The notes below the pieces were generated by a model that saw nothing but the letters and a program-made list of their open reading frames with translations, did no database searches and was not told the DNA's origin. Below are positions 192-24,500 of a stretch of DNA of 29,082 bases, one piece after another. Made by a program: the position numbers and the translations under genes. The stretch's first letter is position 1. Each line of letters begins with the position of its first letter. This DNA comes from a virus: the IMG/VR virus record IMGVR_UViG_3300006919_000291, positions 1 to 29,082 of that record; one strand, given 5' to 3'.

Positions 192-503
192 CTATCCATT
201 CTTCCCAAACTTTTGAGAACGAGCAGCACCAGAGCCTCTGGCAACACCGCCGCCTTCCATCTTCTGGATCTTGGTGACACCCCCTGCTGCGTACATCTTT
301 GAACTCATACGCATCTTGTTTGGCATGTTGTTCGGCATCTTGCCGCCACTTTGGGCAAGAAACGCAGGAACCATTTCGCCGTCTTTCTCTGCCATCGGCA
401 TCTTGCCGCCAGACTTGTAGCCCTTAGACTTCATTTTTCCGCCACCGGCATAGCCTTTGGACTTCATCTTGCCGCCAGCCATCATCCCTTTAGACTTCTT
501 CAT
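192..503 (-). CDS. Small Gly/Lys/Met-rich repeat protein
   Basis: This gene encodes 103 residues from the ATG at the 503 end, preceded on the minus strand by a strong GGAGG ribosome site 6 nt away; that site decides the start over an upstream in-frame codon. The first third is a tandem repeat of units like GGKMKSKGY, giving a very basic low-complexity region with no acidic residues. The middle is richer in P, N and M. The C-terminus contains GGGVARGSGAARSQKFGKNG. A similar GG-x-VR-x-x-G-x-A ending occurs in the small protein encoded next to the large terminase. It overlaps the upstream gene by 14 nt and abuts the probable portal gene. The function is unknown. Its place among head genes suggests a virion or assembly role, and the charge suggests nucleic-acid binding; both are inference. 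Confidence 0.75.
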   Translation of the reverse strand: MKKSKGMMAGGKMKSKGYAGGGKMKSKGYKSGGKMPMAEKDGEMVPAFLAQSGGKMPNNMPNKMRMSSKMYAAGGVTKIQKMEGGGVARGSGAARSQKFGKNG

Positions 504-1179
504 CGGAATCCTCCGCATATAAATTGTCAAAAACCCTGTTCACATCCAGCGTGTAGTCAAGATCAGACTTGCTGTAATGAATATGTTGAGACGGGCGAAA
601 ATCTGGTGCGCCCTCTCCTGTCTCAAACCAAGCTGGGTGAGTCACCCTAACTCGATTATTCGGTAACGCTACTATGTTCCCTGTATACGGGCCTGCCTCT
701 AGTAGCTCCATCACATGACTCTGCTTGTGTTGTGCGGGGTCATCTGCAATTTCGTTGTCTGTGTAGTCTACAGTAAACATGTACTTAGCAGGGTAGAACT
801 CTCCGTCCACCTTTGCCAGCCACGGACAGGGTGATGCCCTCTCCAACACATATACCGAATGATCCCGTGATGAGCAATCCCAAGGTTGCGCTGCATATAC
901 AGGCATCGGCTCAGGCCATTCCTCAAAAGGCGTGTCGCCTACCAGTGCGGTGATTGGCATTCTTGCCCACATCGCCCCGCCATGAACATTGGGTTCGTCG
1001 GTGTCGTATGTCTCTGCACCAGTAAATATCAACTGAAAACTCAGGCATCGCTTTGGCATTGTCGTGACAGCAATTGCCATCGCATGAACAAATTCACCGT
1101 GATACTTAGTGTGGTTATGCGTGTATTCCTTTCTCACCCAGCACTTAAAGTACGGGATGTTGCTTTGAAGATATGGCAT
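490..1179 (-). CDS. Conserved phage protein of unknown function
   Basis: The product is 229 residues and starts MPYLQSNIPYFKCWVRKEY. It is rich in aromatic residues and prolines, and has motifs such as GGAMWARMPITALV (about residues 67-80) and a C-terminal region with TGNIVALPNNRVRVTHPAW. No signal peptide or membrane segment is visible. I recognise the style of a protein often seen beside terminases in marine phage contigs, but I know no assigned function. The start ATG immediately follows the TAG of the preceding small gene, with no good ribosome site of its own, so translational coupling is likely. The end overlaps the following Gly/Lys/Met-rich gene by 14 nt. Confidence 0.8.
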   Translation of the reverse strand: MPYLQSNIPYFKCWVRKEYTHNHTKYHGEFVHAMAIAVTTMPKRCLSFQLIFTGAETYDTDEPNVHGGAMWARMPITALVGDTPFEEWPEPMPVYAAQPWDCSSRDHSVYVLERASPCPWLAKVDGEFYPAKYMFTVDYTDNEIADDPAQHKQSHVMELLEAGPYTGNIVALPNNRVRVTHPAWFETGEGAPDFRPSQHIHYSKSDLDYTLDVNRVFDNLYAEDSDEEV

Positions 1180-1371
1180 CTATCTAGGCTTTGCCGTCCC
1201 ATCCATTCTGACCCTGCCGCCCTTCTTCATGTCTTTAACTTCTTGATTTTTTGGAGGGTCTAGCGGAGCAATATTTTTTTTCTTTGTTACTGGAGGTTCT
1301 AGCGGAGCAATGTCTTTCTTCTTTGTTATTAAAGGCTCCAGCGGAGCAATCTTTTTTTTCTTACTGGTCAT
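1180..1371 (-). CDS. Small Lys/Pro repeat protein
   Basis: This 63-residue protein is built mainly of three tandem 13-residue units of the form TKKKxIAPLEPPx (isoleucines at residues 8, 21 and 34). Each unit has a lysine run followed by IAPL and an acid-proline pair. The DNA shows the same 39-bp periodicity. The C-terminus, MKKGGRVRMDGTAKPR, carries the GG-x-VR-x-x-G-x-A pattern also found at the end of the Gly/Lys/Met-rich protein encoded nearby. The start ATG overlaps the terminase TAA by one base (TAATG), which suggests coupled translation. The function is unknown. A disordered, basic, proline-rich linker-like protein made with packaging genes could act on DNA or as a head accessory, but nothing proves it. 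Confidence 0.7.
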   Translation of the reverse strand: MTSKKKKIAPLEPLITKKKDIAPLEPPVTKKKNIAPLDPPKNQEVKDMKKGGRVRMDGTAKPR

Positions 1372-2882
1372 TAGTAATAACTCGCTTTCCTTGGATAAAA
1401 AGGTTCGTCCTCTTCATCACTGAGTAGTCGTAAGAACCCGCCCTGCCTAAACCGTAGCAATGCCTGTGTAGAGGAGTCTACAAGGTCATCATGCTCACCA
1501 GCAGGAAAAGCAGCAAACTCTTCTACAACCTCTTCGGCAAACCGTGTGTTAGGCCGCCATACATTGCCAGAGGCAAACAAGTCAGATACTGCGTTTACAC
1601 GGCTGATCTTATCGTTGCCCCTAGACGGGGTGTATTCCGCAACAGGTATGCCCATCGCTCGTAGCTCAAAGATCAGCGGCGTACCCGCTGCCTTGGCTTC
1701 TACAATGCAGGCATCTGGCTCCCAGTAACCGTAAAACTCATAGGCTTTCTTTTTAAGCTCAGGGAACTCTAGTCGCTCTTTGTGAGCATCAAGCAGGATT
1801 ATGTTCGCCTGCATCGTGCCTACATCGTCTGGGTGGTAAAACACACCCCATGTCGTACAGGCAGAGAAATCTGATCGTTGAGTCTTGAGGAATGCCGTAT
1901 CCCAAGACTGGATAATAAACTCGCATTCAGGCGGCACATCACTGTCCCATTCGCGCCACCATTCCCTTTTCACCAGAGCGCCCTCTTCTGAGGTTGGATT
2001 CTGCTGATACTGGGCATTCCACTTGGGAGCGGGTAATTCGTTGCGTAGCGACTCAAGCTCTTCTAAAGGCCAGAACTGAGGCCATAGCGACTTACCTGAC
2101 GGCATGATCGCCGGGAACTCAATCACCTCCCATTCATCCGTACCAGCCCGTTGCACTGAGGACTTGATAATCTGCCCTGTCAAGTCACGTTTGTGCCATC
2201 GGGTCATAACAACGATGATCGCGCCTCCCGGCTGTAAACGCTGTCTAGGCCCGGAGGTATACCACTCGTAAACTTTATCAAACACACCGGGATCGGCACT
2301 CTGCCCTTCTTGCTCAGAATGCGGGTCATCGATAATCAACAGATCCGCACCCTTACCAGTCACAGCACCGCCAACACCAATAGCGAAGTATTCGCCGCCT
2401 TGTGTGGTACTCCACCGGCCTGCGGCCTTGGAATCTGCCCGTAAACCCAACGCAGGGAAAACCTGCTTGTAGTCTTCACTGTCTACTAGGTTACGAACCT
2501 TGCGACCAAAACCAACCGACAACTCTGCGGTGTGGGCAGTCTGAATGATCTTCTTCTCAGGAAAGTTACCTAGAAACCAAGCGGGGAGTAAGTACGAAGC
2601 AAACTCTGACTTAGTGTGCCGTGGTGGCATATTGATTATCAGACGCTTCAACTCGCCACGGGCAACACGCTCAAAAGCATCCCCCATGATCTTGTGATGC
2701 CTGCCCTCAATAAACGCAGGCCATACATGTTTGATAAACGGCATGAACCCGTCACGGGCCAATTCCTTAGCTTCAGCGGCCTCTAACTCTTCAATAAGAG
2801 CCAGCATCTCGCGCTGCTCATGCTCAGGTAAATTAGGGATCTTCTTGAGAAGATCTGGGTCTACTCTGTCAAGAATCGGCAT
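1371..2882 (-). CDS. terL: Terminase large subunit
   Basis: This is the DNA-packaging motor ATPase and headful or site-specific nuclease, which works at the portal. The product is 503 residues, the usual length for the family. The N-terminal ATPase shows a Walker A variant MPPRHTKS (residues 85-92), Walker B LLIIDDP (181-187) and a coupling motif MTRWHKRDLTG (226-236). The C-terminal RNase H-like nuclease shows an acidic residue in QSWDTAF (D328), one in IVEAKAAGTP (E395) and a final HDDLVDS (D465/D466). All expected catalytic residues are present. The start ATG has a weak AGAGGG site 4 nt upstream. The long leader holds a promoter candidate and palindromes. The small subunit is encoded upstream but is separated by about 460 nt. 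Confidence 0.97.
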   Translation of the reverse strand: MPILDRVDPDLLKKIPNLPEHEQREMLALIEELEAAEAKELARDGFMPFIKHVWPAFIEGRHHKIMGDAFERVARGELKRLIINMPPRHTKSEFASYLLPAWFLGNFPEKKIIQTAHTAELSVGFGRKVRNLVDSEDYKQVFPALGLRADSKAAGRWSTTQGGEYFAIGVGGAVTGKGADLLIIDDPHSEQEGQSADPGVFDKVYEWYTSGPRQRLQPGGAIIVVMTRWHKRDLTGQIIKSSVQRAGTDEWEVIEFPAIMPSGKSLWPQFWPLEELESLRNELPAPKWNAQYQQNPTSEEGALVKREWWREWDSDVPPECEFIIQSWDTAFLKTQRSDFSACTTWGVFYHPDDVGTMQANIILLDAHKERLEFPELKKKAYEFYGYWEPDACIVEAKAAGTPLIFELRAMGIPVAEYTPSRGNDKISRVNAVSDLFASGNVWRPNTRFAEEVVEEFAAFPAGEHDDLVDSSTQALLRFRQGGFLRLLSDEEDEPFYPRKASYY

Positions 2883-2890
2883 AAAACCCT

Positions 2891-3018
2891 CTAGGAATAT
2901 TCCCGTCTAGGAATATTCCCCTCTCATGTATATACCTAAAATAATCATGTATCTGCCGTGGGGGGCACCTTCCTAGTAGGAATCTTCCTTACTCGGCATA
3001 TTCCTAGAGAGAGGAATA
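2891..3018. promoter_or_regulatory. Cluster of GGAATATTCC palindromes upstream of terL
   Basis: Two identical copies of CTAGGAATATTCCC lie at 2891-2904 and 2907-2920, their centres 16 bp apart. A variant, TAGGAATCTTCCT, lies at 2977-2989. A spaced inverted repeat of the same half-site, TATTCCT-6 nt-AGGAATA, covers 2999-3018 and abuts the -10 box of the minus-strand promoter candidate. The same 10-bp palindrome recurs at 12288-12356 upstream of the helicase gene. The arrangement fits an operator array for a dimeric regulator, phage or host, that would control late or packaging transcription. No obvious repressor gene is visible in the window, so the binding protein is unknown. Confidence 0.6.
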
Positions 3019-3022
3019 ACTG

Positions 3023-3049
3023 ATTATACAGAAGTTACACACTTGACAA
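3023..3049 (-). promoter_or_regulatory. Candidate sigma70-type promoter for terL
   Basis: Read on the minus strand, a TTGTCA box (3049-3044) is followed after 15 bp by a perfect TATAAT (3028-3023). The spacing is short compared with the usual 16-18 bp. Transcription would begin near 3016, inside the inverted repeat TATTCCT-AGGAATA, which is a classic operator position, and would give an mRNA leader of about 130 nt that also contains two more copies of the palindrome before the terL start. Confidence 0.45.
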
Positions 3050-3345
3050 GAATGAGGCAAACACTTTGTGTGAAAATTTTGCAAAATTTTTCGGGGGCTA
3101 GGATTCCTACCCCTTTTCCCTGCAAAAAAAGGGTGAGTACTACTTACTGTTTACGGAATATATATTTTTTGGGTAATTGTTTGAGTGTTTCACTATGTAT
3201 ATAGACGGTGGGTGTGTATAGGCATAGGGGGGGGTGGGGTGGTCGCAGGATGATAGACAGATTTGCTGAGAGGCGGGGGTGTGCTAACCGTTAGCATATG
3301 CTGTACTGCGTACACAAACCGTTGGGCTATGGTGTACTGGCTACG
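3050..3345. other. Non-coding gap between small and large terminase genes
   Basis: No convincing gene is seen on either strand. The stretch holds an imperfect palindrome CTAGGATTCCTA near 3098-3109, flanked by G and C runs, an AT-rich tract near 3150-3180, and a G-rich run (eight G, T, four G, T, two G) at 3227-3242. An inverted repeat CCCTTTT / AAAAGGG lies at 3111-3133. Gaps this long between terminase genes are unusual, so a packaging (pac or cos) site is possible, but no direct evidence supports it. Confidence 0.4.
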
Positions 3346-3819
3346 CTAATGCAAACTGTCAGGCTTGGCCTCATCATCGGCCTTGGCTTGCAGTGCTGCC
3401 AACCGGCGCTCTATCTCTGCCGCGACACTGGTGCTATCCCTGTCGCCACTGTTTGTCTCGACTACATCCTTGAACATGCCCACAGTCTGGCCCAGTAGCT
3501 GCGCTGCCTTGAGCTTATTGGTATCGGTAGGCTCGGCATCATCCATCCACTTGCGCAGACGCTCTAGAACTTTCTCCCTGTCGCTGACCAGCGAGGCCGA
3601 TACTGCACGTTCATTCTTCGCCCTTAACTGATCCAGCAATAGGGTAATGGCAGGGTTGGCGGCGAGTCTGCTGGCTTCTGTCCTAATGGCTGCCGCGCTC
3701 ATGTTCTCGCACTGGTACGCCTCCCTGTAAGCATCACTTAAGCTCATGCCTGCACCACTGCCCAATGCCAACGCAAAGTGCCGCTGCTTACTGGTGAGTC
3801 CTGACTTGGGTCTGCCCAT
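3346..3819 (-). CDS. terS: Probable terminase small subunit
   Basis: The 157-residue product begins MGRPKSGLTSKQRHFALAL. This is followed by a helix-turn-helix-like region (roughly residues 8-58) with SLSDAYREAYQ, AAIRTEASRLAANP and AITLLLDQL, a pattern typical of phage small terminases that recognise the packaging site. A charged helical segment follows (about 70-110), and the tail is rich in A, E, K and D with EIERRLAALQAKAD, likely an oligomerisation or large-subunit contact region. I chose the ATG that begins the conserved GRPKSGLT segment. A TTG five codons upstream would also be possible, and neither has a strong ribosome site. The gene is on the same strand as terL but 463 nt upstream of it. 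The assignment rests on the N-terminal pattern and position. Confidence 0.8.
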   Translation of the reverse strand: MGRPKSGLTSKQRHFALALGSGAGMSLSDAYREAYQCENMSAAAIRTEASRLAANPAITLLLDQLRAKNERAVSASLVSDREKVLERLRKWMDDAEPTDTNKLKAAQLLGQTVGMFKDVVETNSGDRDSTSVAAEIERRLAALQAKADDEAKPDSLH

Positions 3820-10071: not shown

Positions 10072-10503
10072 CTAAACCGAATCTAGGACGGTTGTCAGAG
10101 TCTCTATGTCAGCCAGCGAGTCGGTTGGCTTGTCCTCTACTATCATCAGGTAGGTCAGAGAGGCTGCATGCTCCCCGAACTCTTCTGCAATTCTTTTGAA
10201 CGTGCGACTGAGCATCAGGATTTGTTCGTTGCGATTTCCCCGATGCCCACCAGTGTGCGTAGCGGTCATGTCTGGACTCTTGAGGTAAACGCCTGCCTGA
10301 ACAGCTTGCGAAAGTATTCTCTCGGCAGCTTGATGATGCTTGATCGTGATATACCGTTTGAGCAGTAAATGATCAATGAACATCTGGTCAGCAACACGGG
10401 CGCGGCCTATACCGCTATCAGACTCCTCCAAGGCAATGACATGGCGGCGGTGGAGTGCCGCCGTGCCGATGTCGTTAACCTTAGATTTCAACGTCCCACT
10501 CAT
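10072..10503 (-). CDS. Small protein downstream of helicase, unknown
   Basis: The 143-residue product begins MSGTLKSKVNDIGTAALHRRH and contains the segment IDHLLLKRYITIKHHQAAERIL, a helical pattern I have seen in small regulatory proteins of alphaproteobacterial phages, without a confident family. The C-terminus is rich in D, E, L and T (DSLADIETLTTVLDSV). The start ATG overlaps the end of the helicase gene by 23 nt, so expression is likely coupled. No catalytic motif or membrane segment is seen. Its operon position suggests a replication-linked or regulatory role, which is inference. Confidence 0.65.
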   Translation of the reverse strand: MSGTLKSKVNDIGTAALHRRHVIALEESDSGIGRARVADQMFIDHLLLKRYITIKHHQAAERILSQAVQAGVYLKSPDMTATHTGGHRGNRNEQILMLSRTFKRIAEEFGEHAASLTYLMIVEDKPTDSLADIETLTTVLDSV

Positions 10504-12241
10504 CGTCGGTCTCGTTAAAGTCTTTCACCCTTGGCGGCGAGAACGGATCTGGCAGATCGTCATAGCTGATTTCGCTGTACCGGCCTGTGGGTATGTCATA
10601 GTCCAAGACGGTGCCGCCCGTAGTGCCTATCCATTTGAACCTGACCTTCCAGACATGTATCTCAGTAGCCTTCTCAGGGCTAAGGTGTACGGTGATCCCA
10701 AGGTCTGCCTTGGCAAAGAAGCTGGCGCTACCAGAGATGTTCATCCCCTTTGGCACCGCCGTTGTGCCGTCTGGGTTGGTTGGCATCTTGGCTGGGTGAG
10801 CGATAAACCAAATGTGAATCTGATTAGCTCTAGCAAACGCAACAAGCCTAGTCAGCATCTCATTGATGCCCTGATGCTCATTGTCTAGCGACCTGCTCTG
10901 CGAGATGTAGTTGTACGGATCGATGACCAAGCCTCGTATGCCCAGCCTCATAACAGCTTGCCTAGCACGGTCTAGAATACTGTCGATTGTGGTTGCCTCA
11001 CCCCCACGCTGCTCCAAGAACAGGAAGTGATCGTTGACCCAGTTCATGGCACTGACAGACTCAACCCTGCTCATGCGGTTTGGCATCCCGTCAAAGAACG
11101 GCTTGCCGACAAACTTCTCCGATAACTTAGCGATGTGCAGAGGCGGCGGGTTCTCAAAGCTTGCGACAGCAAACCTCCAGCCCTCGCTTTGTGCCAGATT
11201 AACCATTATCTGGTCAATAAACTCAGACTTGCCAGATCCCGGCAGTCCGGTAACAACAGACAATTGCCCCGGCACCACTGTGAACAGCCTATCGACAGAC
11301 GGTATCCCTGTAGACATCCCGCCCACCAAGCCGTTGTCGTACAGGTGAGCAATATCCAAAGCATAGTCATCCGCTGAGTACACACCCTCCAACGGCATAG
11401 CTGCCGCCCTGTCAATTGCCAGTGCCAATGCCTCTGGCCCAAGCTTCAGCAAAACATCGTTTGCGTCCTTGCACCCATCAGGCCACTCGACAGACCAGCA
11501 CTTGGCTCTGCCGATACGCCTAGCCAACTCCTCAGCCAATGCGAACCCAGCATCGTCACCGTCAGCAGCTAGAACAATCCTGTCCACCCGCTCAATCAAA
11601 TCCTTTGCCGCCCAGATGTAGGCGAACTTGTTATCGTCTTCTGGGTTTAATTCTTTTGTGCTTACCTTCTGTGGCGCACCGTTGGGTACGCTGACGCAGG
11701 AATCTATGCCAGCCGTAGCGCATGCCAGCAAATCCATTTCACCCTCGACAATGACCAGTGTGGTTGCATCATCTGGCACCTGCTCTGCACCCCACAGGGT
11801 TCGGGCAGCACCGTCTTGTGTAAACGCTTTACCCTCGACGCTACGCCACTTCACGGCTTCTTTGTTGCCGTAGACAAAACCGATAGACGGCTGCTCACCG
11901 TTGTTGTGGTAGAACTTTGTGCCGCTAACGACTGGATACCTGTCAACGACAGACGGGTCTATGCCTCTATCTGACAAGCATTTACTGATCAAATCTTTAT
12001 CGGTGGTCTTGGGAACGGATATCGCCCTGACTTTGGGTGCCTGTGGACGGTAGTCTGGATGGTCTGTTTTGCCAGCTAAACCGCAATGATGGCAGTGATA
12101 CAGGGTTGTGTTCCCGTCCATCGTTACAGTCATTGATTTCATGCCCTTCTTCTTTCTTGTTTCACTGCATACTGGGCAAGGTATACGAGCGTTCTCGGTG
12201 TATTGGACTAGGATCGAATCCAAGTCTTCTTTATTTAGCAT
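10481..12241 (-). CDS. Primase-helicase (T7 gp4/Twinkle-like)
   Basis: The 586-residue product joins primase and replicative helicase. An N-terminal zinc finger has CPVC (22-25) and CHHC (50-53). The TOPRIM region has IVEGEMD (164-170) and AADGDDAG (225-232). A RecA-type helicase follows, with Walker A TGLPGSGKS (331-339), Walker B LVIDP (438-442) and a later FIAHPAK segment with the motif-H3-like histidine. It would prime and unwind DNA during phage replication. The chosen ATG (12241) follows GCAGGAGTGCAA, a strong ribosome site; a GTG two codons earlier sits inside that site. The upstream gap holds four palindromes shared with the terL leader. No DNA polymerase gene was found in the window. 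Confidence 0.93.
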   Translation of the reverse strand: MLNKEDLDSILVQYTENARIPCPVCSETRKKKGMKSMTVTMDGNTTLYHCHHCGLAGKTDHPDYRPQAPKVRAISVPKTTDKDLISKCLSDRGIDPSVVDRYPVVSGTKFYHNNGEQPSIGFVYGNKEAVKWRSVEGKAFTQDGAARTLWGAEQVPDDATTLVIVEGEMDLLACATAGIDSCVSVPNGAPQKVSTKELNPEDDNKFAYIWAAKDLIERVDRIVLAADGDDAGFALAEELARRIGRAKCWSVEWPDGCKDANDVLLKLGPEALALAIDRAAAMPLEGVYSADDYALDIAHLYDNGLVGGMSTGIPSVDRLFTVVPGQLSVVTGLPGSGKSEFIDQIMVNLAQSEGWRFAVASFENPPPLHIAKLSEKFVGKPFFDGMPNRMSRVESVSAMNWVNDHFLFLEQRGGEATTIDSILDRARQAVMRLGIRGLVIDPYNYISQSRSLDNEHQGINEMLTRLVAFARANQIHIWFIAHPAKMPTNPDGTTAVPKGMNISGSASFFAKADLGITVHLSPEKATEIHVWKVRFKWIGTTGGTVLDYDIPTGRYSEISYDDLPDPFSPPRVKDFNETDDEWDVEI

Positions 12242-12253
12242 TTGCACTCCTGC
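12242..12253 (-). promoter_or_regulatory. Conserved ribosome-binding leader GCAGGAGTGCAA
   Basis: Read on the minus strand, GCAGGAGTGCAA directly precedes the helicase ATG. The same 12 bases precede two plus-strand genes (starts at 13386 and 15352). The GGAG part is the Shine-Dalgarno core, and it decides the ATG start here. Confidence 0.7.
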
Positions 12254-12287
12254 TTTTGCTGTGGTTAAAATCCACCGTCAGGTGGTC

Positions 12288-12356
12288 TTAGGAATATGCC
12301 CAGCTTGGAACATTCCTTAAATAATTAGGAATCTTCCTCAACAGGAATATTCCTAG
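12288..12356. promoter_or_regulatory. Four-site palindrome array upstream of helicase
   Basis: Four copies of the GGAATATTCC-type palindrome lie at 12291-12300 (GGAATATGCC), 12307-12316 (GGAACATTCC), 12328-12337 (GGAATCTTCC) and 12344-12353 (GGAATATTCC). Their centres are 16, 21 and 16 bp apart, and the identical pair upstream of terL is also 16 bp apart. The last two lie inside the 3' end of the preceding small gene. This is a probable operator array for the regulator that also acts near terL; the protein is unknown. Confidence 0.6.
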
Positions 12357-12621
12357 CCGGTTTTATCACCCCCTCCAGAAGATCCATCACCGCCCTCTTT
12401 CTTTCAACACCCTGCAACCGAGCAGCAGCCAAAGCTTGCTGCCTAAAGTCAGGGTTTGCATTGAGCGGCATAGCGATTGTCTCATCTGCAAAATATCGGA
12501 TGGCACTGATTCTATCTCTTGAGGAATCTGAGTCGATATCTTTTACGGTTTGAATGAAAATTCTTCTCTTAAGTTTTCTCTCGCGCTTCTTCCACGCAGA
12601 TTTCTGCTCTCGGCTGATCAC
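12325..12621 (-). CDS. Small basic protein between resolvase and helicase
   Basis: The product is 98 residues with a very basic N-terminus (SAWKKRERKLKRRIFIQ), a helical middle and RLQGVERKRAVMDLLEGV near the end. A nucleic-acid contact is plausible but unproven. The start is a GTG with only a weak ribosome site, 53 nt inside the resolvase gene, and no better start is available. The 3' end carries two of the GGAATATTCC palindromes, so its C-terminal residues (ARNIPVEEDS) are constrained by that DNA site. Moderate doubt remains about the start. Confidence 0.6.
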   Translation of the reverse strand: MISREQKSAWKKRERKLKRRIFIQTVKDIDSDSSRDRISAIRYFADETIAMPLNANPDFRQQALAAARLQGVERKRAVMDLLEGVIKPARNIPVEEDS

Positions 12622-12931
12622 GGTCTAACCCCCAGTAGATGTGTTTCTGTTTCACCTGCCTATCGTTCTTGTAAATCTTGTCCTGCATACAATCTAAGAT
12701 TACTGACTCATCAAGATCAGGCCTTCTCGTCGCATAGTAGATAGTCATAGTCACCGACAAATCCCCCTCCAGCAGTTCTGGCAGCACAGGGCATTGCTTG
12801 GCAAACGTGTCTACATAGTCCCTAGCCTTCTTGCTTTTGATGAACGCAGGCCTGCCGCGAATCGTCACAAGTTTTCGGCTATTTGCTTTTGATGCTGGCT
12901 CACCATAAATTGTGAACTGTACTGTTGTCAA
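12569..12931 (-). CDS. rusA: RusA-type Holliday junction resolvase
   Basis: The 120-residue product fits RusA endonucleases that cut four-way DNA junctions. It opens with TIYGEPASKANSRK, a conserved N-terminal pattern, and contains the acidic cluster RRPDLDESVILDCMQDKIYKND (residues 69-90), with D72, D74 and D90 matching the known catalytic aspartates of the family. The start is a TTG at 12931, with GGAG six bases upstream, which outweighs the absence of an ATG. It is divergent from the plus-strand genes starting 50-100 nt away and lies upstream of the small basic protein and helicase, so it belongs to the replication and recombination set. Confidence 0.88.
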   Translation of the reverse strand: MTTVQFTIYGEPASKANSRKLVTIRGRPAFIKSKKARDYVDTFAKQCPVLPELLEGDLSVTMTIYYATRRPDLDESVILDCMQDKIYKNDRQVKQKHIYWGLDRDQPRAEICVEEAREKT

Positions 12932-12984: not shown

Positions 12985-13167
12985 ATGGCTAAACTCAAAT
13001 CATTTTTAACCGAATTGGAAGACGAAGGTTCTATCAACTATGACGAACAACAACGAAGATTTATTGGTCTTGGAGGACAATGTCCCACTACCCAAGGACA
13101 ACCGTATGGGGGCAGGAGAAAGCCTGCCAGCAAACTTCAAAAAGATTGTGGAACAGATGAGGATTGA
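12985..13167 (+). CDS. Small protein overlapping the next gene
   Basis: The 60-residue frame begins MAKLKSFLTELEDEGSINYD and continues QQRRFIGLGG. The N-terminal 25 residues look like a natural helix, but the rest (QCPTTQGQPYGGRRKPASK) resembles translation of the following gene in the wrong frame, because 128 nt are shared with the gene starting at 13040. The ribosome site is weak (TGGACAC). It may be a short leader protein or an artefact. Confidence 0.35.
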   Translation: MAKLKSFLTELEDEGSINYDEQQRRFIGLGGQCPTTQGQPYGGRRKPASKLQKDCGTDED

Positions 13168-13363
13168 TCAATCCTTTTTTGTCCCGACTGAGAGCGAGGC
13201 GCATCGCAAAGCGAAAACCAACGCCATCAGGTCAGCAATACGGAGAATGCAAAACGATGTTAAAAGCAGTGTGGAACCGGATTCGACATTTTCTGTCAGA
13301 AAATACCCTGATCCAAGCCGTGGGGCAGGACAATACGGTTTACGGGTTTACCGAGTTACCTAA
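13040..13363 (+). CDS. Small conserved-looking phage protein
   Basis: The 107-residue product has a central segment ANFKKIVEQMRIDQSFFVPT followed by a basic helix (RKAKTNAIRSAIRRMQN) and a C-terminal beta-rich end (FSVRKYPD...GLRVYRVT). This shape is common in small phage proteins of unknown role that are predicted to contact DNA; none is assigned by me. GAAGG lies about 11 nt before the ATG, a poor spacing. It opens the plus-strand block and may be first expressed. Confidence 0.65.
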   Translation: MTNNNEDLLVLEDNVPLPKDNRMGAGESLPANFKKIVEQMRIDQSFFVPTESEAHRKAKTNAIRSAIRRMQNDVKSSVEPDSTFSVRKYPDPSRGAGQYGLRVYRVT

Positions 13364-13372
13364 AGAACAAAC

Positions 13373-13384
13373 GCAGGAGTGCAA
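13373..13384 (+). promoter_or_regulatory. Conserved ribosome-binding leader GCAGGAGTGCAA
   Basis: An identical copy of the 12-base leader precedes the ATG at 13386 by one base. It rejects an upstream in-frame start at 13164 for this gene. The same leader is found before the helicase gene and the annealing-protein gene. Confidence 0.7.
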
Positions 13385-13385
13385 T

Positions 13386-13670
13386 ATGTTCAAGATCGAA
13401 GATAGTCCCAAGCCACCCTCAAAAATATCTCTGTTGAGGATTGAGGTTATGGAGACCATAACAGCGTTGAAAGCCGGTCAGCATTTTGATGTGCCTTATG
13501 ACTACGAAGGCCTTGGCAAGGTTCGGGTTGTGAGTTGTGTAAACAACTACGTCAGCCAGATCAGAATTATGCATGGTAAAGACTGCCCGTTTACCTACAA
13601 AGTCACCAACTGCAAGAAGGAAAAGGGCGGGTACTCTCGCGTTTCCATGCACAAAGTTGATGAACAATAA
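13386..13670 (+). CDS. Small basic protein, unknown
   Basis: The product is 94 residues, beginning MFKIEDSPKPPSKISLLRIEV, with YEGLGKVRVVSCVNNYVSQI and a lysine-rich TNCKKEKGGYSRVS near the end. It looks like a compact, mixed alpha-beta protein with a cationic surface, compatible with nucleic-acid binding. The GCAGGAGTGCAA leader fixes the start. Its TAA shares a base with the next ATG (TAATG). No family was recognised. Confidence 0.7.
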   Translation: MFKIEDSPKPPSKISLLRIEVMETITALKAGQHFDVPYDYEGLGKVRVVSCVNNYVSQIRIMHGKDCPFTYKVTNCKKEKGGYSRVSMHKVDEQ

Positions 13671-15058: not shown

Positions 15059-15332
15059 GTCTGACAAGCCAACCTACGAAAAGATGGTTGCCGTGTTCCA
15101 GATAACGCAGATTCCTGCGCTACAGATGGCGATTAAGGGCGATCAGGCCTCGTTTACTTGGGCCAAGGGCTTTCTCTTTGGGTTTCCAATGAGTCAGTTC
15201 TACCAGCTTGAGCCGATTGAGATTTCTAACCTACTAGAAGCTGCGCTTGAGGAGCATTACGACGTACCAAAGCGGCACTACAGAAATAAATTAACGGGGT
15301 TCAGTAAAGACCCATTCAGTTCACAAAACTAA
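15048..15332 (+). CDS. Small protein, unknown
   Basis: The 94-residue product starts MMIESDKPTYEKMVAVFQIT, has FTWAKGFLFGFPMSQFYQL in the middle and ends with FSKDPFSSQN. Two adjacent ATGs (15048 and 15051) share a GAGGG site; either could be used. An upstream extension in the same frame lacks a site. It overlaps the previous gene and sits just before the annealing protein. No family was recognised. Confidence 0.6.
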   Translation: MMIESDKPTYEKMVAVFQITQIPALQMAIKGDQASFTWAKGFLFGFPMSQFYQLEPIEISNLLEAALEEHYDVPKRHYRNKLTGFSKDPFSSQN

Positions 15333-15338
15333 TCCATA

Positions 15339-15350
15339 GCAGGAGTGCAA
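15339..15350 (+). promoter_or_regulatory. Conserved ribosome-binding leader GCAGGAGTGCAA
   Basis: The third copy of the 12-base leader precedes the ATG of the annealing protein by one base. The three copies, on both strands, are identical over all 12 bases. Confidence 0.7.
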
Positions 15351-15351
15351 C

Positions 15352-16080
15352 ATGGAAAATGACGTATCGCTAGGCGATATCTGGGCCACCCTTTACCCAG
15401 TGAAATGCAGCGAGTTTGCAAAGAAGAAAAACGGGTTGACCTATCTGGCTTGGAACGAGGCTTGGCGGCTGCTTATGAGCCATTACCCTACCGCTCATTA
15501 CGAGTTCGGGGAGAACGAGGTTCATGCTGATGGCTCGCAAACAGTTCACTGCACAGTAGCTATCGCAGGTCATGCACGGCACATGTGGTTGCCGGTCATG
15601 GACTACAAGAACAAGGCTATACCTAACCCCAACGCCCGTGATGTCAGCGACACAAAGATGCGCTGCTTGGTTAAGACCATTGCGATGTTCGGTCTAGGGT
15701 TTCATATCTTCCAAGGGCAGGTTCAGCCTGAAGACACATGGGATGATTCCACAGAAGAGGAAAAAGAAGACAAGCCTGTTGTGCAAAAGCCGGTTGCCAA
15801 GAAGCCTGCTGCAAAGAAGCCAGAACCAGAGCCAGAGGCTGACGATGAGGACTTCTTTTTTACCGACACGCAGGAAGGTGCAGACCACTGGGTAGATCGG
15901 TTGATCGAAACAGTGAATGGGCTGGTAGAGACCAAGAAGGGTCTACGCAGTATCTGGGACGGAAATAAGAAAGCGGTGGACAAGCTACAGGCTGAGTACC
16001 CCGAATCTTACAAACGATTGGCTGACGTTATGAAAGCCAAGCAAGACGAACTAAAGAAGAAGGAGTCTGAAAATGGATAG
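15352..16080 (+). CDS. Sak-type single-strand annealing protein (DUF1071)
   Basis: The 242-residue product resembles the Sak/DUF1071 group of phage annealing proteins that pair complementary single strands. Family-like segments are TYLAWNEAWRLL (29-40), LPVMDYKNKAIPNPNARD (80-97) and MRCLVKTIAMFGLGFHIFQG (102-121). After that comes a Lys/Pro/Glu-rich linker (about 139-167, KPVAKKPAAKKPEPEPE) and a helical C-terminal domain ending in a lysine-rich run. The shared GCAGGAGTGCAA leader decides the start. With the exonuclease upstream and the SSB-like protein just downstream, overlapping by 8 nt, it forms a homologous recombination module. Confidence 0.85.
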   Translation: MENDVSLGDIWATLYPVKCSEFAKKKNGLTYLAWNEAWRLLMSHYPTAHYEFGENEVHADGSQTVHCTVAIAGHARHMWLPVMDYKNKAIPNPNARDVSDTKMRCLVKTIAMFGLGFHIFQGQVQPEDTWDDSTEEEKEDKPVVQKPVAKKPAAKKPEPEPEADDEDFFFTDTQEGADHWVDRLIETVNGLVETKKGLRSIWDGNKKAVDKLQAEYPESYKRLADVMKAKQDELKKKESENG

Positions 16081-18312: not shown

Positions 18313-18500
18313 GCGACGAAGAAACAAAGGAAAGTGTTGAAGAGTTTCTGGCAAGTGGCGGCGAGATCGAACAAGTGCCGTTTGGTAAAAGAAAGTACAA
18401 AGAAGACTGGGAACCTTGGGAAAAACCAGACAGAGGTTTGTCTTTCAAGGTGTTGCAAAATATCCGTAAAAACCGCCGCAAAGCAAGAGGACTCTCCTAG
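18309..18500 (+). CDS. Small FLAxGG-motif protein, copy 2
   Basis: The 63-residue product carries ESVEEFLASGGEIEQVPFGK, a second copy of the motif in the preceding gene, and ends in a basic segment (NIRKNRRKARGLS). The pair probably arose by duplication. Its stop overlaps the stop of the convergent giant gene by 4 nt, with no terminator between, so the two transcripts would collide or overlap. Confidence 0.65.
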   Translation: MSDEETKESVEEFLASGGEIEQVPFGKRKYKEDWEPWEKPDRGLSFKVLQNIRKNRRKARGLS

Positions 18501-21500
18501 AGAAGGTTGGATATCCTGTTAGCTATAGTCTCTGTTGCCGTGGGTAGTTCTATGTATCTTTCTAGCTGCGGGACGATGCTCAGGTAGTACTGCTCTTGAG
18601 TATTGATAAACCTCATCTGCTCCTGCTTCTGATCTGCCGTCAGGTCAGACTTCAATAAGGTTCTACGCTGCTTCCTGAGATCTGCAAGCGCACTGGCTGT
18701 AGGCTGTAGCTGCTTCCTCAGACCTATGAACTGCTTTTTATTTACCAAGAAACTCTCAAGCTCATCAAACCTACCTTGGTCTTGCAGCAGCTTGGCTGCA
18801 TTCTCGGTACGCTTGATGTAGTCCCACATCTCGTAGAAGTCTTCTTTGTTACCGCCACCAAACTCACTAGCAAAGAACCTTCGTATGACCGGATACTGAG
18901 AGACATCGGTTCCAGCAAGCACCGCTCTGTTGTCTCCTTGCAGGGTGGTGCCTCTCAAGCCATAGTCAACGGCACCCAAGAAATAAGATCCAATTGTGCC
19001 GCCGTAGCCTTTCATCAAATGATCTAGTTTGATCGGGCTTATGCCCAAGACCTTTGCCATGTTCTTGGCAACCTCTGTTGTAGAGGCAAGCTCTTGAAGC
19101 TCTGGCGGCAATGATGAATCTATAAATACGGGAGTTACAGGTCTACCCGTGTAGAGGTCGTAGTTCATGTACGCCTCCATGATCGGGGTTATTGCCTGCG
19201 GGGGTTGAACGCCAAGCGTACCAAACACTGCTCGGCCTATTGATTGCTGCGCCTCTCTGGCAGTTGTGCCTTCGTTGTAAGAATCAATGATCCGCTCAGG
19301 CAGCGTCTTGAAGATAAGGCCAACCTCAAACGGGATTGGTATTCTGACTGGCACACCAGACGGCGTGGGTATTAGCCAATAGTTGTCTTTTACTTCTTCG
19401 GTCTGCTCTTTGTACTGCTCATCATCACTAACCATTGTGTAGTAAATGGCTGTACTAGCAGCTATCAAAGATCCTCTGGCGATAAAGCTCATGGCTGCCT
19501 GAGAGCGTGAAAGGTCTCTATTGGCAGAGCTTTTACCTGTACCGGCCCGTGCAAGGACATCTAAGCCTTGTATCCTAGCGTTCAAGAAAGGAATCGTTGC
19601 TGTAACCAATCGCATAACAGGACTGCTGCCACGGCGACCAAAGTTCAACACCTCCATCGCTTGATAGCTGGCCTCTGCTTCATTACCTGTACGAGCTAAT
19701 ACATCGTTGTAAACAGCGTTTCTAGTAGCAGCGTCTGAACGGGTTGTCGCCTGACCAAGAAAATCCCAACCGCCGATAAAGAGTTTACTAAGAAGCCCTC
19801 TTTGATCTACGTTCTTGTTGCGAGTTTGAAGTATCTTTCCTGCGTACTCGCCAATGTTTTCTGGGTCATTCTTGTAGTCATAACCGCCTACAACACCTGT
19901 CCTTTCAAGCTTCTCCATGCCTTCAGCGTAACCAAAGACAGTGTCAACTATTGGCACAAAGCTAGATCCAGAGGTAACAAACGCAGACAACGAATCACGC
20001 AGCATGTTTGCAATAACAAACCCCGGCTCCCGTGTAACCATCTCTCGTAAAAAACGGGATGGGAAACCCAGTATCTTAGAAACTTCACGCTCTACCCCAC
20101 CGGCAGGCTCAACAGTCAACGACTCATATATTAACGGGTCATCAATAATGAACTTACGTCTATTGCCGTTGACCTTGAAGGTGACAACAGCCTCGCCTGT
20201 AGTGTTCTGTCCGGGCTTGACCTCTCTTGCTAAACCAATGTTTCTCATGTCCCTGACAATGCGTTGCTGGGCAACATTCTTCATGCCCATGCTAATCGCT
20301 GCGTTCAGGTTCATGGATATTGCTTCCAAGAGCGGCACGTTAACTTCTTTTTCGCTGCCTTTGATTGCCTTTAGGTCTGCGCTTGCAGTCAGGCCGCCAA
20401 AGATGTTCGGCGCGTTTGGGGTGTCGGCACCTTCTACTTGACGATAGAAAGGCACATAGTCTGACTGGTCTTGCCACATCTCTGCGGTCTCTGCATCAAC
20501 AACACCCGTATCTTTGAGAAACTGAACGGTGTAGCCGTTGTAGTCCTGCCAAGCGTCATACCAGTCCTTGACTATTGAGTTGCCATTCTCATCCAAGAAA
20601 GACTCTGCGGTTGCAATGTTAGCTGCATGATCTGCCGGGGTTCCCGGTACGGCTATGCCTTTTGCTCGCAAACGCTCGGATCTCTTAGCTATTGAGTATG
20701 CCTGAGCCATTTGCTCAAGAGACCCATGCTCCTTGGTGTACAGCATAGACATCAGGTCTATAAGGCCACCAATCTTTCTGGTCTCGCCACGGCTATTGAT
20801 GTGGTTGAAATCCGCTATCTTAGTCATGCCACCTGTGTACACAGGGACACCGTACTGAAGAGCGGCTGCGGTTATCGCGTTAGCCCTGTCAGCGTTCAAA
20901 GCGGCAGCCAAGGACGATGAGTCAGCAAGCAAGTTGCCAAGCATGCCTTGGTAGTTTTCTAGCTGGGCATACCTATTGACTGCTGCCTGTTTAGCCTTGG
21001 TCAACCACTTGGCTATCGGCCCTTGGTCTAAGACGTTGAGGTAGGTCTGTCCGGGGGTGTTTGTGGGTAGGTCTGCAACAACATTATCTATTGCAGCTTG
21101 AGCAGCAGGATTGACCTGTGGTGAGTTAGACCTAGAGAAAGCAGGCATTTCACTATCTGAAAGCTCTTGGCCTTTGTCTGGGTCGGCTGCTACAGCTTGT
21201 GCATATGGATCTGCGCCGGGATTAAATCGTGGCACCGTGCCTGCGGGACGATTCTCTGCTATTTGTAGATTGTCGGCTACAACACGGTCAACTTCACTCT
21301 GACCTATTACTTCTTTGCGCTTGTATTTATCAAGCAGGTTGAATGGAAGCCCTACGTCTTCAGTCGGTATCGGTCTGGCAGCATCGCCTCTTCCTCTGCG
21401 CCTAGAGGCTGAGTCGGGTCTCGGTCTGGGTACGCCGCCATCAGATAGTTTTCTCTCGTAAGTGGCTGCTTGGTCGCCTTCAGGTATCCCTCCGTCAGAT

Positions 21501-24500
21501 CGTTCCCAGTCGGGCGGCTTGATTTGTCCTGCATGTTCATAGATGGCCTCTCTAGCCTGATCCAGCGTTATCTGCTTTTTATTATACTGCTTCCATATAC
21601 TGTCTACAACTTCCACATTACTGTTTTGAGACTTGTACTCTGGTCGGAAGAGGCCTCTGACCGCTTCCCATGTAATGGACTGCATCTCTCTAGGTAAAAC
21701 ACCGCGCTCGTTAGCAGCACGGCGGTAGGCTTCCTCGTAGATTGAGTACACGCCGTTTAGGCCCGTAATGCTTGACGATGAACCCTTCGTTCCAAAATTG
21801 TGAGAAACCTCAAATGCACTGCCGCCAAGAGGTTTAAGAAGCCCTGCCGCAACGGCATGGGTGTCTATGGTTACATAGCCAAGATCCGAGTCTGGATCGA
21901 ATATGTTGTTGTAAAAGTTTCTGACTTTGTTTGCCGAACCAAGCGATGCAGATATAGCGTCAATGTCAGTTTCTCTTAGGGCTTTGATTGACTTGGCTAT
22001 CTCAGTTAGAGATCCCCAAGCCACCTTAGAGTTGCTACCGTCAGAATTCTTTGCGTAGTCGAGAAGTCTGCCGTCAGGGGATACAATCCTGTAGCTAGGG
22101 TCGTTATAGGTCTGGTCAAAAGTCCTGATCCACATAGCGCCTAGCTGCTCACCTTGCCCCGGCTCATTGAATTTATCCAGTACTTGATCAAGGGAGCTAG
22201 AGCCTATCAGAGTAAGCATCTCACGATTTCTGGCTTGACCCTTGGCGCTTATACCATCATGAAAGAATATTTCTTCGGCGCGAGCTTTCATCTCAGGAGT
22301 AAAAGGCTGCCCTGCGTGATCAAAGAACGTATCAATAGTTCTCTCTGCGAGCGAGGCGTTTTGATACCAGTCCTTTTGCGGAGACAGGTTGGCTGCAACA
22401 GCAGCAGCTTGTTGCATGGTTAAGTTGTGACGTTCTGCAAATCTACGGACTAAAGCGTTTGCGCCTTTGTACCAAACCTTCGAGTTATTACGGGTATCAG
22501 CCGGAACCCTGTCATATATATTGAGCAGATTATTCTTAACAAGCTCAACAAACGCCTCTGCTTTTTGTTTATCTGATCTTAGGTCTTTTGATTTCTGTAG
22601 TATCGGATAGAGGTTAGCGTCTTTGATAAGCTCCATGTTCTTGCCAAAGACCTTGCCGTCAGCAAGAAAGGTTTCGTAGTCATTGACTAGTAAGTCTTCA
22701 AGAGGGTCTTCTTTTGATCTGGCGGCTGTGGGGTATCGGGTACTTACATTACCCTCTATACCGCCCTGTTCAGCGGCTCGCCTAGAGAACATAGGTGATT
22801 CTTCAAAGCCGTCCCTGCCTTCACGGGATGTCCACTCAGGCATCAAGCCCATCTTCTGGTCAGCAAAGACGGTGTCTAGTACACCAGCGCCTTGGTTTTG
22901 CTCGCCATATGGGCCGTAGTTCAGCCAGCTATTCTGCCCCCTAGTCTCAGACGTAAGTGCCTGTAACGCTGGGCCAGTGAATAGTTTGGCGTGTGCCTGC
23001 CATGCATTTTCCTCACCGCGAGCGCGGAATCCAGCACCTTCTATGCCGTGACCAAATGCGTCATGTACAGCCCTGAATAAGTCGTTGTTGGTGACTATTT
23101 GCTTTCGACCTAGCTGATCTTTCCATCGCAACCCTGTGTCACGCAACATAACCCTGTTTGGATCGCCTATATCGTTATAGAAGTCATCTAAGGTGCCGTA
23201 GCCGTCATAAGTGCCATAGACGGACATGCGTTTGTTGCCGCGCAAGTCCCGCATTGCGTTGTACGGGTTGCCGTCATAAGGGTCTGTGTCTGAATCATAG
23301 AAATCAAACTCAAAACCTTCGTCAATCAAGGCATCGTATTGGTTGCGTGTTTGCCTAGCCAGATCCTCATAAGCATCCCTAACATTAGGATCAGTGGGAT
23401 CATCAGCCATCTCCTCATAAGCCTGCGCTATCCGAGTGGCTCTCTCTGGGTCTACCCTTACATATTCCGATTGTCTGGCAAGCGGGATGCCATAGGTCTC
23501 TGCATATCGCTCTGCTGCGGCATTGACTGCTGGGTCTGGCCCCGTGGCCCCTGCCCTGATCGGCGCTCCTTCGAGCGGCGTTCTGCTTGCACCCTGATCT
23601 TCTGTCGGCGCAACGCCTCGTGCCTGATCGCGTCCTCTTCCGTCTCTTCCGCGTTGGGATCGTACATTGTCGCCTCCAAGGCTTGATATGTTTCTGGAGA
23701 AAGCTGGAGACTCACCAAAGTCTCGCTCTACTGGATCTACATAGCCTTCGCGCCTTGGAAGGTCAGATACGCCAGCAGCCTCTGATATGGCTCTAGATTC
23801 TTTGTCTGTAAGGATCTTTGTGACTTTGATACCGCCACTAATCATCCAATTTTCAAACATATTGGGATTAGTCTTGTAACGGTAGTAGCCGTTTTCCGGC
23901 ATTTGATCCGTTATGTCAGCCGTGGTTACGTCTAGCTCGCCATTAGCTTTAGTTCTGGCGTTGGCGTTAGCTATCGTTTGCCAGTCAAAGTCGGCGGGTA
24001 CTTCTATTTCTGCCCATACCTGATCGTCTTTTCTAAAGTCTGGCCTAGAAAGCTTCTTGCTGGTCTTGCCGCCTATGTGCGGAGCCATAGGTAAATCGCC
24101 GGAATGAAATCCCGGTCTAAACGCCACGCCTTGTATCGCTTTAACATCCGGGTTTTTAATAACACCAAGGTCAGCCAATCTTTGGGCCTCTTCCGGGCTT
24201 ACATTGACCCTGCCGCCAGTTGTTGCTTTTACATAGGGCTTTCCATTTGCCCCCATGAAAAACCCTTTGGCTCCTTCCGTTCTTGGGTCTGTTGCCTTTA
24301 TCCACTCTCCAGTAGGAATTGGCGTAGCACCTTCAACAAACAGCGGGTAAATCTGCCCGTCTTTGTAGTTAAAAAGCTTGTATGCCTTTACTACATTTAC
24401 TGGCTCTTTCATCGGCTTAGGACGGCGAGAAAAGTTGACCTCTTCTGCCGCCTTAACATCTTGAGCGTTATCAGCTATCTCGGATTCTTCAAAGTCAGCA

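Follow-up and report, generated by a model that had tools for sequence, protein, structure and literature searches.

Examination of a sequence of 29,082 bases from an uncultured marine phage revealed two matching arrays of short palindromes, one in front of a primase/helicase gene and the other directly upstream of the terminase large subunit gene (terL). In related phages the palindrome motif differs from lineage to lineage, and it is identical at the two loci wherever both can be read in an array-bearing phage. Both arrays are very probably sites for a single phage-encoded protein with sequence specificity. As to their function, we tentatively read them, at a little short of even chances, as cis-acting cooperative operators or roadblocks that would gate the primase-helicase and terL operons.

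Two palindromic arrays in the window and its relatives

The window is the whole of the virus record IMGVR_UViG_3300006919_000291 (positions 1 to 29,082), and its features are collected in Table 1. On the minus strand the RusA gene (12569-12931) is followed by the small gene and then by the primase/helicase gene; the helicase array (12290-12354) lies between the latter two and overlaps the end of the small gene. It is made of four 12-bp palindromes with the consensus AGGAATATTCCT, centred at 12295.5, 12311.5, 12332.5 and 12348.5. The spacing of 16, 21 and 16 bp given in an earlier, sequence-only reading is thus borne out, as is its placing of two sites (3 and 4) within the 3' end of the small open reading frame. 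Site 3 overlaps the final codons of this frame together with the opening base of its stop codon. The AT-rich core that separates the site pairs is also seen in the arrays of relatives.

The second array carries the same motif and occupies positions 2893-3005, about 9.4 kb from the first, with four good sites and two poor ones. Recurrence of the motif at terL had been put forward as making chance unlikely; the recurrence is real, and what had been taken as a single terL site is itself an array. Upstream of this array stands a conserved promoter-like element. TGTCAA, followed about 14 bases on by a TATAAT- or GCTAAC-like hexamer, was found there in 19 of 21 sequences; in random 240-bp windows TGTCAA occurs at a frequency of 223 in 4000. 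From its conservation we infer that the element is a promoter. A consensus promoter scan listed none at terL, and the spacing of TTGTCA-N15-TATAAT is short for sigma-70.

Table 1. Features of the window discussed in the text (positions on the 29,082-base record)
Feature	Position	Strand	Remarks
Terminase large subunit gene (terL)	1371..2882	-	downstream of second array
terL array site	2893..2904		AGGAATATTCCC
terL array site	2909..2920		AGGAATATTCCC
Degenerate terL array site	2926..2937		ATGTATATACCT, adjoins AT-rich stretch
Degenerate terL array site	2962..2975		from de novo motif search
terL array site	2978..2989		AGGAATCTTCCT
terL array site	2994..3005		CGGCATATTCCT
Promoter-like element TTGTCA-N15-TATAAT	3023..3049	-	conserved, upstream of terL array
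DNA primase/helicase gene	10481..12247	-	phrog_239, E 9.6e-85
Stem-loop CCACC-TGAC-GGTGG between array and helicase start	12272..12285	-	one pair compensated in L010-L014
Helicase array, palindromic site 1	12290..12301		AGGAATATGCCC, 2 mismatches to AGGAATATTCCT
Helicase array, palindromic site 2	12306..12317		TGGAACATTCCT, 2 mismatches to AGGAATATTCCT
AT-rich core between both site pairs	12318..12326		TAAATAATT
Small gene, all-helical 98-aa protein	12325..12621	-	without family match; travels with arrays
Helicase array, palindromic site 3	12327..12338		AGGAATCTTCCT, 1 mismatch to AGGAATATTCCT
Helicase array, palindromic site 4	12343..12354		AGGAATATTCCT, 0 mismatches; within small gene
DUF7303-like protein gene	13040..13363	+	phrog_7597, E 1.6e-4; Pfam match under Pfam cut-off; candidate binder

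The window contains nine sites that depart from the consensus at no more than two positions, where 300 dinucleotide shuffles average 0.86 and never exceed 4, and up to four sites start within a span of 60 bp, a number never above two in the same 300 shuffles. This test is partly circular because the consensus was derived from these very sites, and a motif-free clustering test gave nothing unusual (2 observed; 19 of 200 shuffles also reach 2). The non-circular support for the arrays comes from the second locus and from conservation in relatives; it is conservation that settles the earlier claim that the array is not a product of chance.

Relatives of the helicase were found in 79 viral loci, and the upstream sequence was read in 76 of them, L023, L071 and L073 being left out since the locus starts too near the helicase or the match is partial. 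An array was recognised by eye in 42 of the 76 (L005-L017, L019-L022, L024-L047 and L058); L018 and the more distant L048-L057, L059-L070, L072 and L074-L083 have none by the same inspection. A de novo palindrome search scored above its own six shuffles in all 20 array loci, narrowly in L017, L043 and L046; three of six arrayless controls (L018, L048, L066) also came out slightly above theirs. On the terL side, where 37 of 80 loci were read and the motif search took in 12 of them, all upstream regions (the 12 loci and nine contigs) exceeded their shuffles except that of the arrayless G024, with L143 marginal (48 against 46).

The layout is kept as well. Sites lie 16-18 bp apart within pairs and 21-28 bp apart across the core in most helicase arrays, a range that does not include L015-L017, L043 and L046, which the motif search divided differently. 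From the last site centre to the helicase start there are 48.5 bp in the window clade, 53 in L020 and 57 in L027. The AT-rich core measures only about 9-20 bp in most lineages; in G044 and G045 it is an alternating TA, and the array is located well upstream of the helicase start. In array-bearing genomes the arrays are about 9-14 kb apart, one before the primase-helicase gene and the other ahead of terL or of genes that lead into it.

When viral contigs were scanned exhaustively for the doubled site GGAATATTCC-6-GGAATATTCC, just two stretches turned up, each immediately upstream of terL and in genomes that are nearly identical; a stringent doubled clade B pattern gave none. Paired sites of the tested motifs are limited to two loci. 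By eye, no array was seen upstream of terL in the isolates HTVC027P, DSL-LC04, HTVC023P and Pag-Yong1. In the Planktothrix phage Pag-Yong1 (L224), a distant isolate, the region 881-1405 ahead of the genes for the lytic enzyme and TerL has several copies of TGTCATAC, which are repeated sites of a different, non-palindromic kind. One helicase relative (44%) lies in a Porticoccaceae metagenome-assembled genome (MAG), which is a hint, from this single relative, of the host.

The sequence-only reading had proposed that protein and DNA site are under double constraint in the last codons of the small gene; the tail of its product, RNIPVEEDS, is specified by sites 3 and 4. Synonymous variation affects 6 of 99 codons of the small gene and none of the 10 array codons, where about 0.6 would be expected (four distinct sequences from six loci), which is consistent with the proposal in a comparison without power; the single array-codon change concerns a flank base, and with expectations of only about 0.6 and 1.4 such variation is nil in both groups. 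The proposal is thus not established. The overlap is present in the window clade and in L010-L014, where one site gives the similar RNMP and stop positions differ, and the array lies outside the small gene in L016 and in the nine clade B loci (L027-L047 type) inspected, while L015 has an intact array and no small gene. Since the overlap is not general and the tail varies with the site, the tail looks like a by-product of the array, and the coding overlap is incidental to some clades.

Other features of the region were recorded. The long non-coding stretch between terS and terL (3023-3400 in the window, and the corresponding regions of relatives) contains several conserved elements, namely TATACATAGT..., a T-run with GCAGGG, TAGGAATCCTA or GGGAGTCCC, paired A/T runs and TTGACA-N-TTGTCAAG, and is possibly a packaging site plus promoter. 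The terL arrays of L124, L126, L128, L129, G012 and G014 have a GC-rich hairpin between their halves whose stem is kept while its sequence changes. A second gene without known function follows the DUF7303-like gene (from about 13389; window 13040-13670) in the window clade only. A single reading frame of 3189 codons (18497-28066, minus strand) takes up about one third of the window and has relatives in all contigs covering the region, and another (192-530, minus strand) encodes GGKMKSKGY-type peptide repeats.

Rewriting of the motif and candidate binding proteins

Lineages can be distinguished by the motif that their arrays carry. The window and L005-L017 have GGAATATTCC; L020-L022 have AGTAGnCTACT, to which the motifs of L024 and L025 are related; L027-L045 and L047 have CTAGGACnGTCCTAG, with CTAGGAAnTTCCTAG in L032. 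Other motifs are CTAGTAAnTTACTAG in G039, CGTATATACG in G023, GATAGC/GAAAGC in G029 and ACTAGTTATAACTAGT in G044 and G045, and terL arrays add GAGAACGTTCTC (L126) and CAGGTAATTACCTG (L146); GGACnGTCC is also among the lineage motifs of array-bearing relatives. The same motif stands at the helicase and terL loci in G000, G002, G004, G005, G006, G012, G014, G017, G023, G029, G044 and G045. The earlier observation that the two loci of the window share a motif is thus confirmed; what it missed is a group-wide conserved pair with lineage-specific motifs.

The helicase and terL regions of one genome have 16-32 seven-mers in common in eight array genomes and two in the arrayless G024. Sharing across clades is also high in some pairs (20 for G004 and G017) because clade motifs are alike at their CTAG ends. 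The Porticoccaceae MAG contig (L226/L227) carries another sequence again, with 13 nine-mers common to both loci, where random windows give at most four (n=479).

The most informative case is that of G023 and G017, whose terL proteins are 89% identical over 194 residues and whose helicases are 69% identical. The promoter-like stretch of G023 is nearly as in G017, yet the motif has been switched at both arrays. Across lineages, too, the TGTCAA element is constant while the adjoining array motif changes. Retention of this element beside a rewritten array favours a phage-encoded reader, and the motif series points to a diversifying DNA-binding protein of the phage rather than to a host factor or an RNA structure.

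The search for candidates gave no protein common to every array-bearing phage. The families of the small protein and of the DUF7303-like protein, neither of which has an assigned function, each occur in 42 of the 79 loci, in sets that are not identical. Both are absent from the arrayless G024; L018 has both and no helicase array. The DUF7303-like gene is absent in the array-bearing G044 and G045, and it was not found in the 11.7-kb locus L226, which has an array and no room for the small gene beside it. AlpA-like helix-turn-helix genes were noted by eye in G044 (22858-23127, minus strand) and G045 (15119-15376, minus strand), phages without the DUF7303-like gene.

The small protein is disfavoured as the array binder. 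It is missing in L015 and lacks room in L226; its identity is 22% between G000 and L016, which have the same motif, against 62% between L046 and L027, which have different motifs; and partial tests put its correlation with the motif at no more than 0.06 (first partial Mantel test 0.06, p 0.31). Identity patterns favour the DUF7303-like protein over the small one, with the motif-switched G023 as an outlier (27-33% identical to members of the G017 group, which are 49-96% identical among themselves). This protein led the first test (partial Mantel 0.59, p 0.0005; 21 genomes, controlled for helicase and RusA) and gave 0.12 (p 0.18; 17 genomes) with a stricter control for relatedness. In a further motif-tracking test the helicase, SSB-like, Sak, NinB and p148 families were nearly as high. 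Under the stricter control only the SSB-like family tracks the motif (0.63), a signal for which a gene replacement in G023 may be responsible.

Predicted models of the two candidate proteins have a mean pLDDT of 83.5 and 85.8. Fold comparison gave no clear relative for either: the best Foldseek E values (1.3 and 0.41) fall short of significance, and the best Z scores in the VIA comparison (6.7 and 6.4) are within the reach of chance. The weak fold rows of the DUF7303-like model include the nucleic-acid-binding folds SpoVS, R3H and Alba, which were not used as evidence. A comparison of the clade B versions of both proteins with 50,697 phage records gave no match.

Possible functions of the arrays

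A phage-encoded DNA-binding protein, probably a dimer, would fill the tandem sites cooperatively. Less certainly, the bound array, placed after a promoter and ahead of the target gene, would act as an operator or as a roadblock to RNA polymerase. The helicase would then be gated separately from RusA and the small gene, entry into the terL operon would be gated in the same way, and the replication and packaging genes would be tied to one regulator. The terL array is downstream of the TGTCAA element and the helicase array is downstream of RusA and the small gene, so that transcription from upstream would cross either one. Multiple similar dyad-symmetric sites near promoters, as expected of a repressor and its operators, are present, the promoter-like element being known from its conservation. 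A GC-rich hairpin followed by a reverse-strand T run was found between the small gene and the array in eight of nine L027-L047-type loci inspected (L027, L032, L033, L036, L039, L043, L046 and L047), as well as in G039; in L045 the stem is imperfect. It is placed as if it were a terminator facing transcription that leaves the array leftwards, and would stop antisense transcription. This element and the positions of the arrays fit with cooperative operators or roadblocks. Against that reading count the distance of the array from the helicase start in G044 and G045, the exceptions that each candidate protein shows among array-bearing phages, and the fact that promoters are called from conservation only.

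The distance in G044 and G045 fits instead with the possibility, which we regard as unlikely on balance and well worth keeping in view, that the arrays form a pair of replication origins, or else one origin and one site of fork stalling, bound by a single phage initiator in the manner of SPP1 oriL and oriR. The separation of about 9-14 kb, the AT-rich core (alternating TA in G044 and G045) and the primase-helicase gene next to one array agree with such a role. The core is short for it in most lineages, and third-position GC skew, weak evidence for phages, does not switch at either array once gene direction is accounted for. The small gene, where an initiator gene might sit, is absent from L015, and its all-helical product has no clear counterpart among known folds. 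The part of the proteins that was scanned includes none annotated as a gp38-type initiator.

Whether operators or origins, the arrays would be DNA sites. Conservation as RNA structure, the palindromes in mirror order forming long hairpins in the helicase and terL leaders, is very improbable. RNA-fold z scores are indeed low (-4.9 for the window array leader and -3.6 for the terL leader, against -2.3 for the arrayless L049), but palindromes fold by construction. In the clade B alignment (A3), both sides changed in 1 of 17 array pairs, compared with 4 of 7 in a separate leader hairpin; in that of the window clade (A4) both sides changed in 2 of 19 array pairs and other pairs break. The compensatory changes by which a structured RNA leader would be recognised are thus almost lacking in the array stems, so that it appears to be the DNA, and not an RNA, that is conserved. 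DNA sites are the best reading of the array, and the leader hairpin is best seen as an RNA (or DNA) element of its own. This hairpin, between the array and the helicase start of the L027-L047 leaders (A3 columns 122-153), has the conserved loop ATATCACAAAA, and the ribosome-binding site lies within or next to its 3' arm; the hairpin may control translation of the helicase.

Binding of a host regulator has a similarly slim probability. Palindromic operators beside host-type promoter elements are common, but a host protein would hardly account for a motif that differs between G023 and G017 at both loci together while the adjoining promoter-like sequence is kept. Least probable of all are packaging sequences recognised by the terminase small subunit, since, although one array adjoins terL in the long non-coding region between terS and terL, packaging would not be expected to start near the helicase, where the other array is placed, and G024 has a TerS relative and an array at neither locus.

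Beyond the operator reading, we consider with considerable reserve a wider proposal: one phage protein acting at the replication and packaging loci, through operators, origins or fork barriers, would couple the switch from replication to packaging, and the address shared by both loci would have been rewritten repeatedly in a group without detectable lysogeny genes. If true, such rewriting would divide co-infecting phages into incompatibility groups with no need of lysogeny. The paired elements, repeatedly replaced together, are a natural series for the study of how binding proteins and their sites change specificity, and the pair would give a handle on replication-to-packaging timing in abundant uncultured phages. 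The two leading readings, operator and origin, make different and simple predictions.

Comparison with known systems

A literature search, mostly without subscription papers and at the level of titles and abstracts, found no description of these arrays. The phage lambda origin has four tandem repeats with internal dyads, the iterons bound by the O protein, next to replication genes and an AT-rich stretch, and resembles the helicase array in these respects. The lambda iterons lie inside the O gene and are not known to have a second copy by packaging genes, unlike the arrays described here. Lambda OL and OR are two distant operator arrays bound cooperatively by one dimeric repressor. Here, in contrast to lambda, no integrase was found in the 11 contigs searched, and HTH_3 was matched among them only in the arrayless G024.

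According to the accessible text of PMC6316719, the two origins of phage SPP1 are similarly organised, with repeats and an AT-rich unwinding element (DUE), and are separated by about 13 kb; gp38 binds both, and fork stalling by gp38 at oriR has been proposed. The window shares with oriL and oriR two elements of like organisation, by replication genes and by the late region, each with repeats and an AT-rich region. SPP1 boxes are described as direct repeats and their initiator is known; the arrays here are palindromes with a putative origin role.

In Cluster A mycobacteriophages (L5, Bxb1), as far as the available portions of PMC6550527 and PMC9283540 describe them, a phage-encoded repressor binds many repeated sites able to stop elongation, and the motif differs between subclusters along with the repressor and with genome distance. 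These stoperators resemble the arrays in being repeated sites with lineage-specific motifs. They are, however, asymmetric, as many as 30 and dispersed over the genomes of temperate phages, whereas the sites here are symmetric and clustered at two places. Co-divergence of this kind is familiar from temperate phages, in which superinfection immunity is the driver; with no integrase found in 11 contigs, the pressure here may be a different one, for example competition among co-infecting phages. Lineage-specific motifs of repeated sites that follow a repressor are already known from Cluster A, on the available text of PMC6550527; the arrays described here are set apart by their palindromic form, by their confinement to two loci and by their occurrence in phages with no detected integrase (11 contigs).
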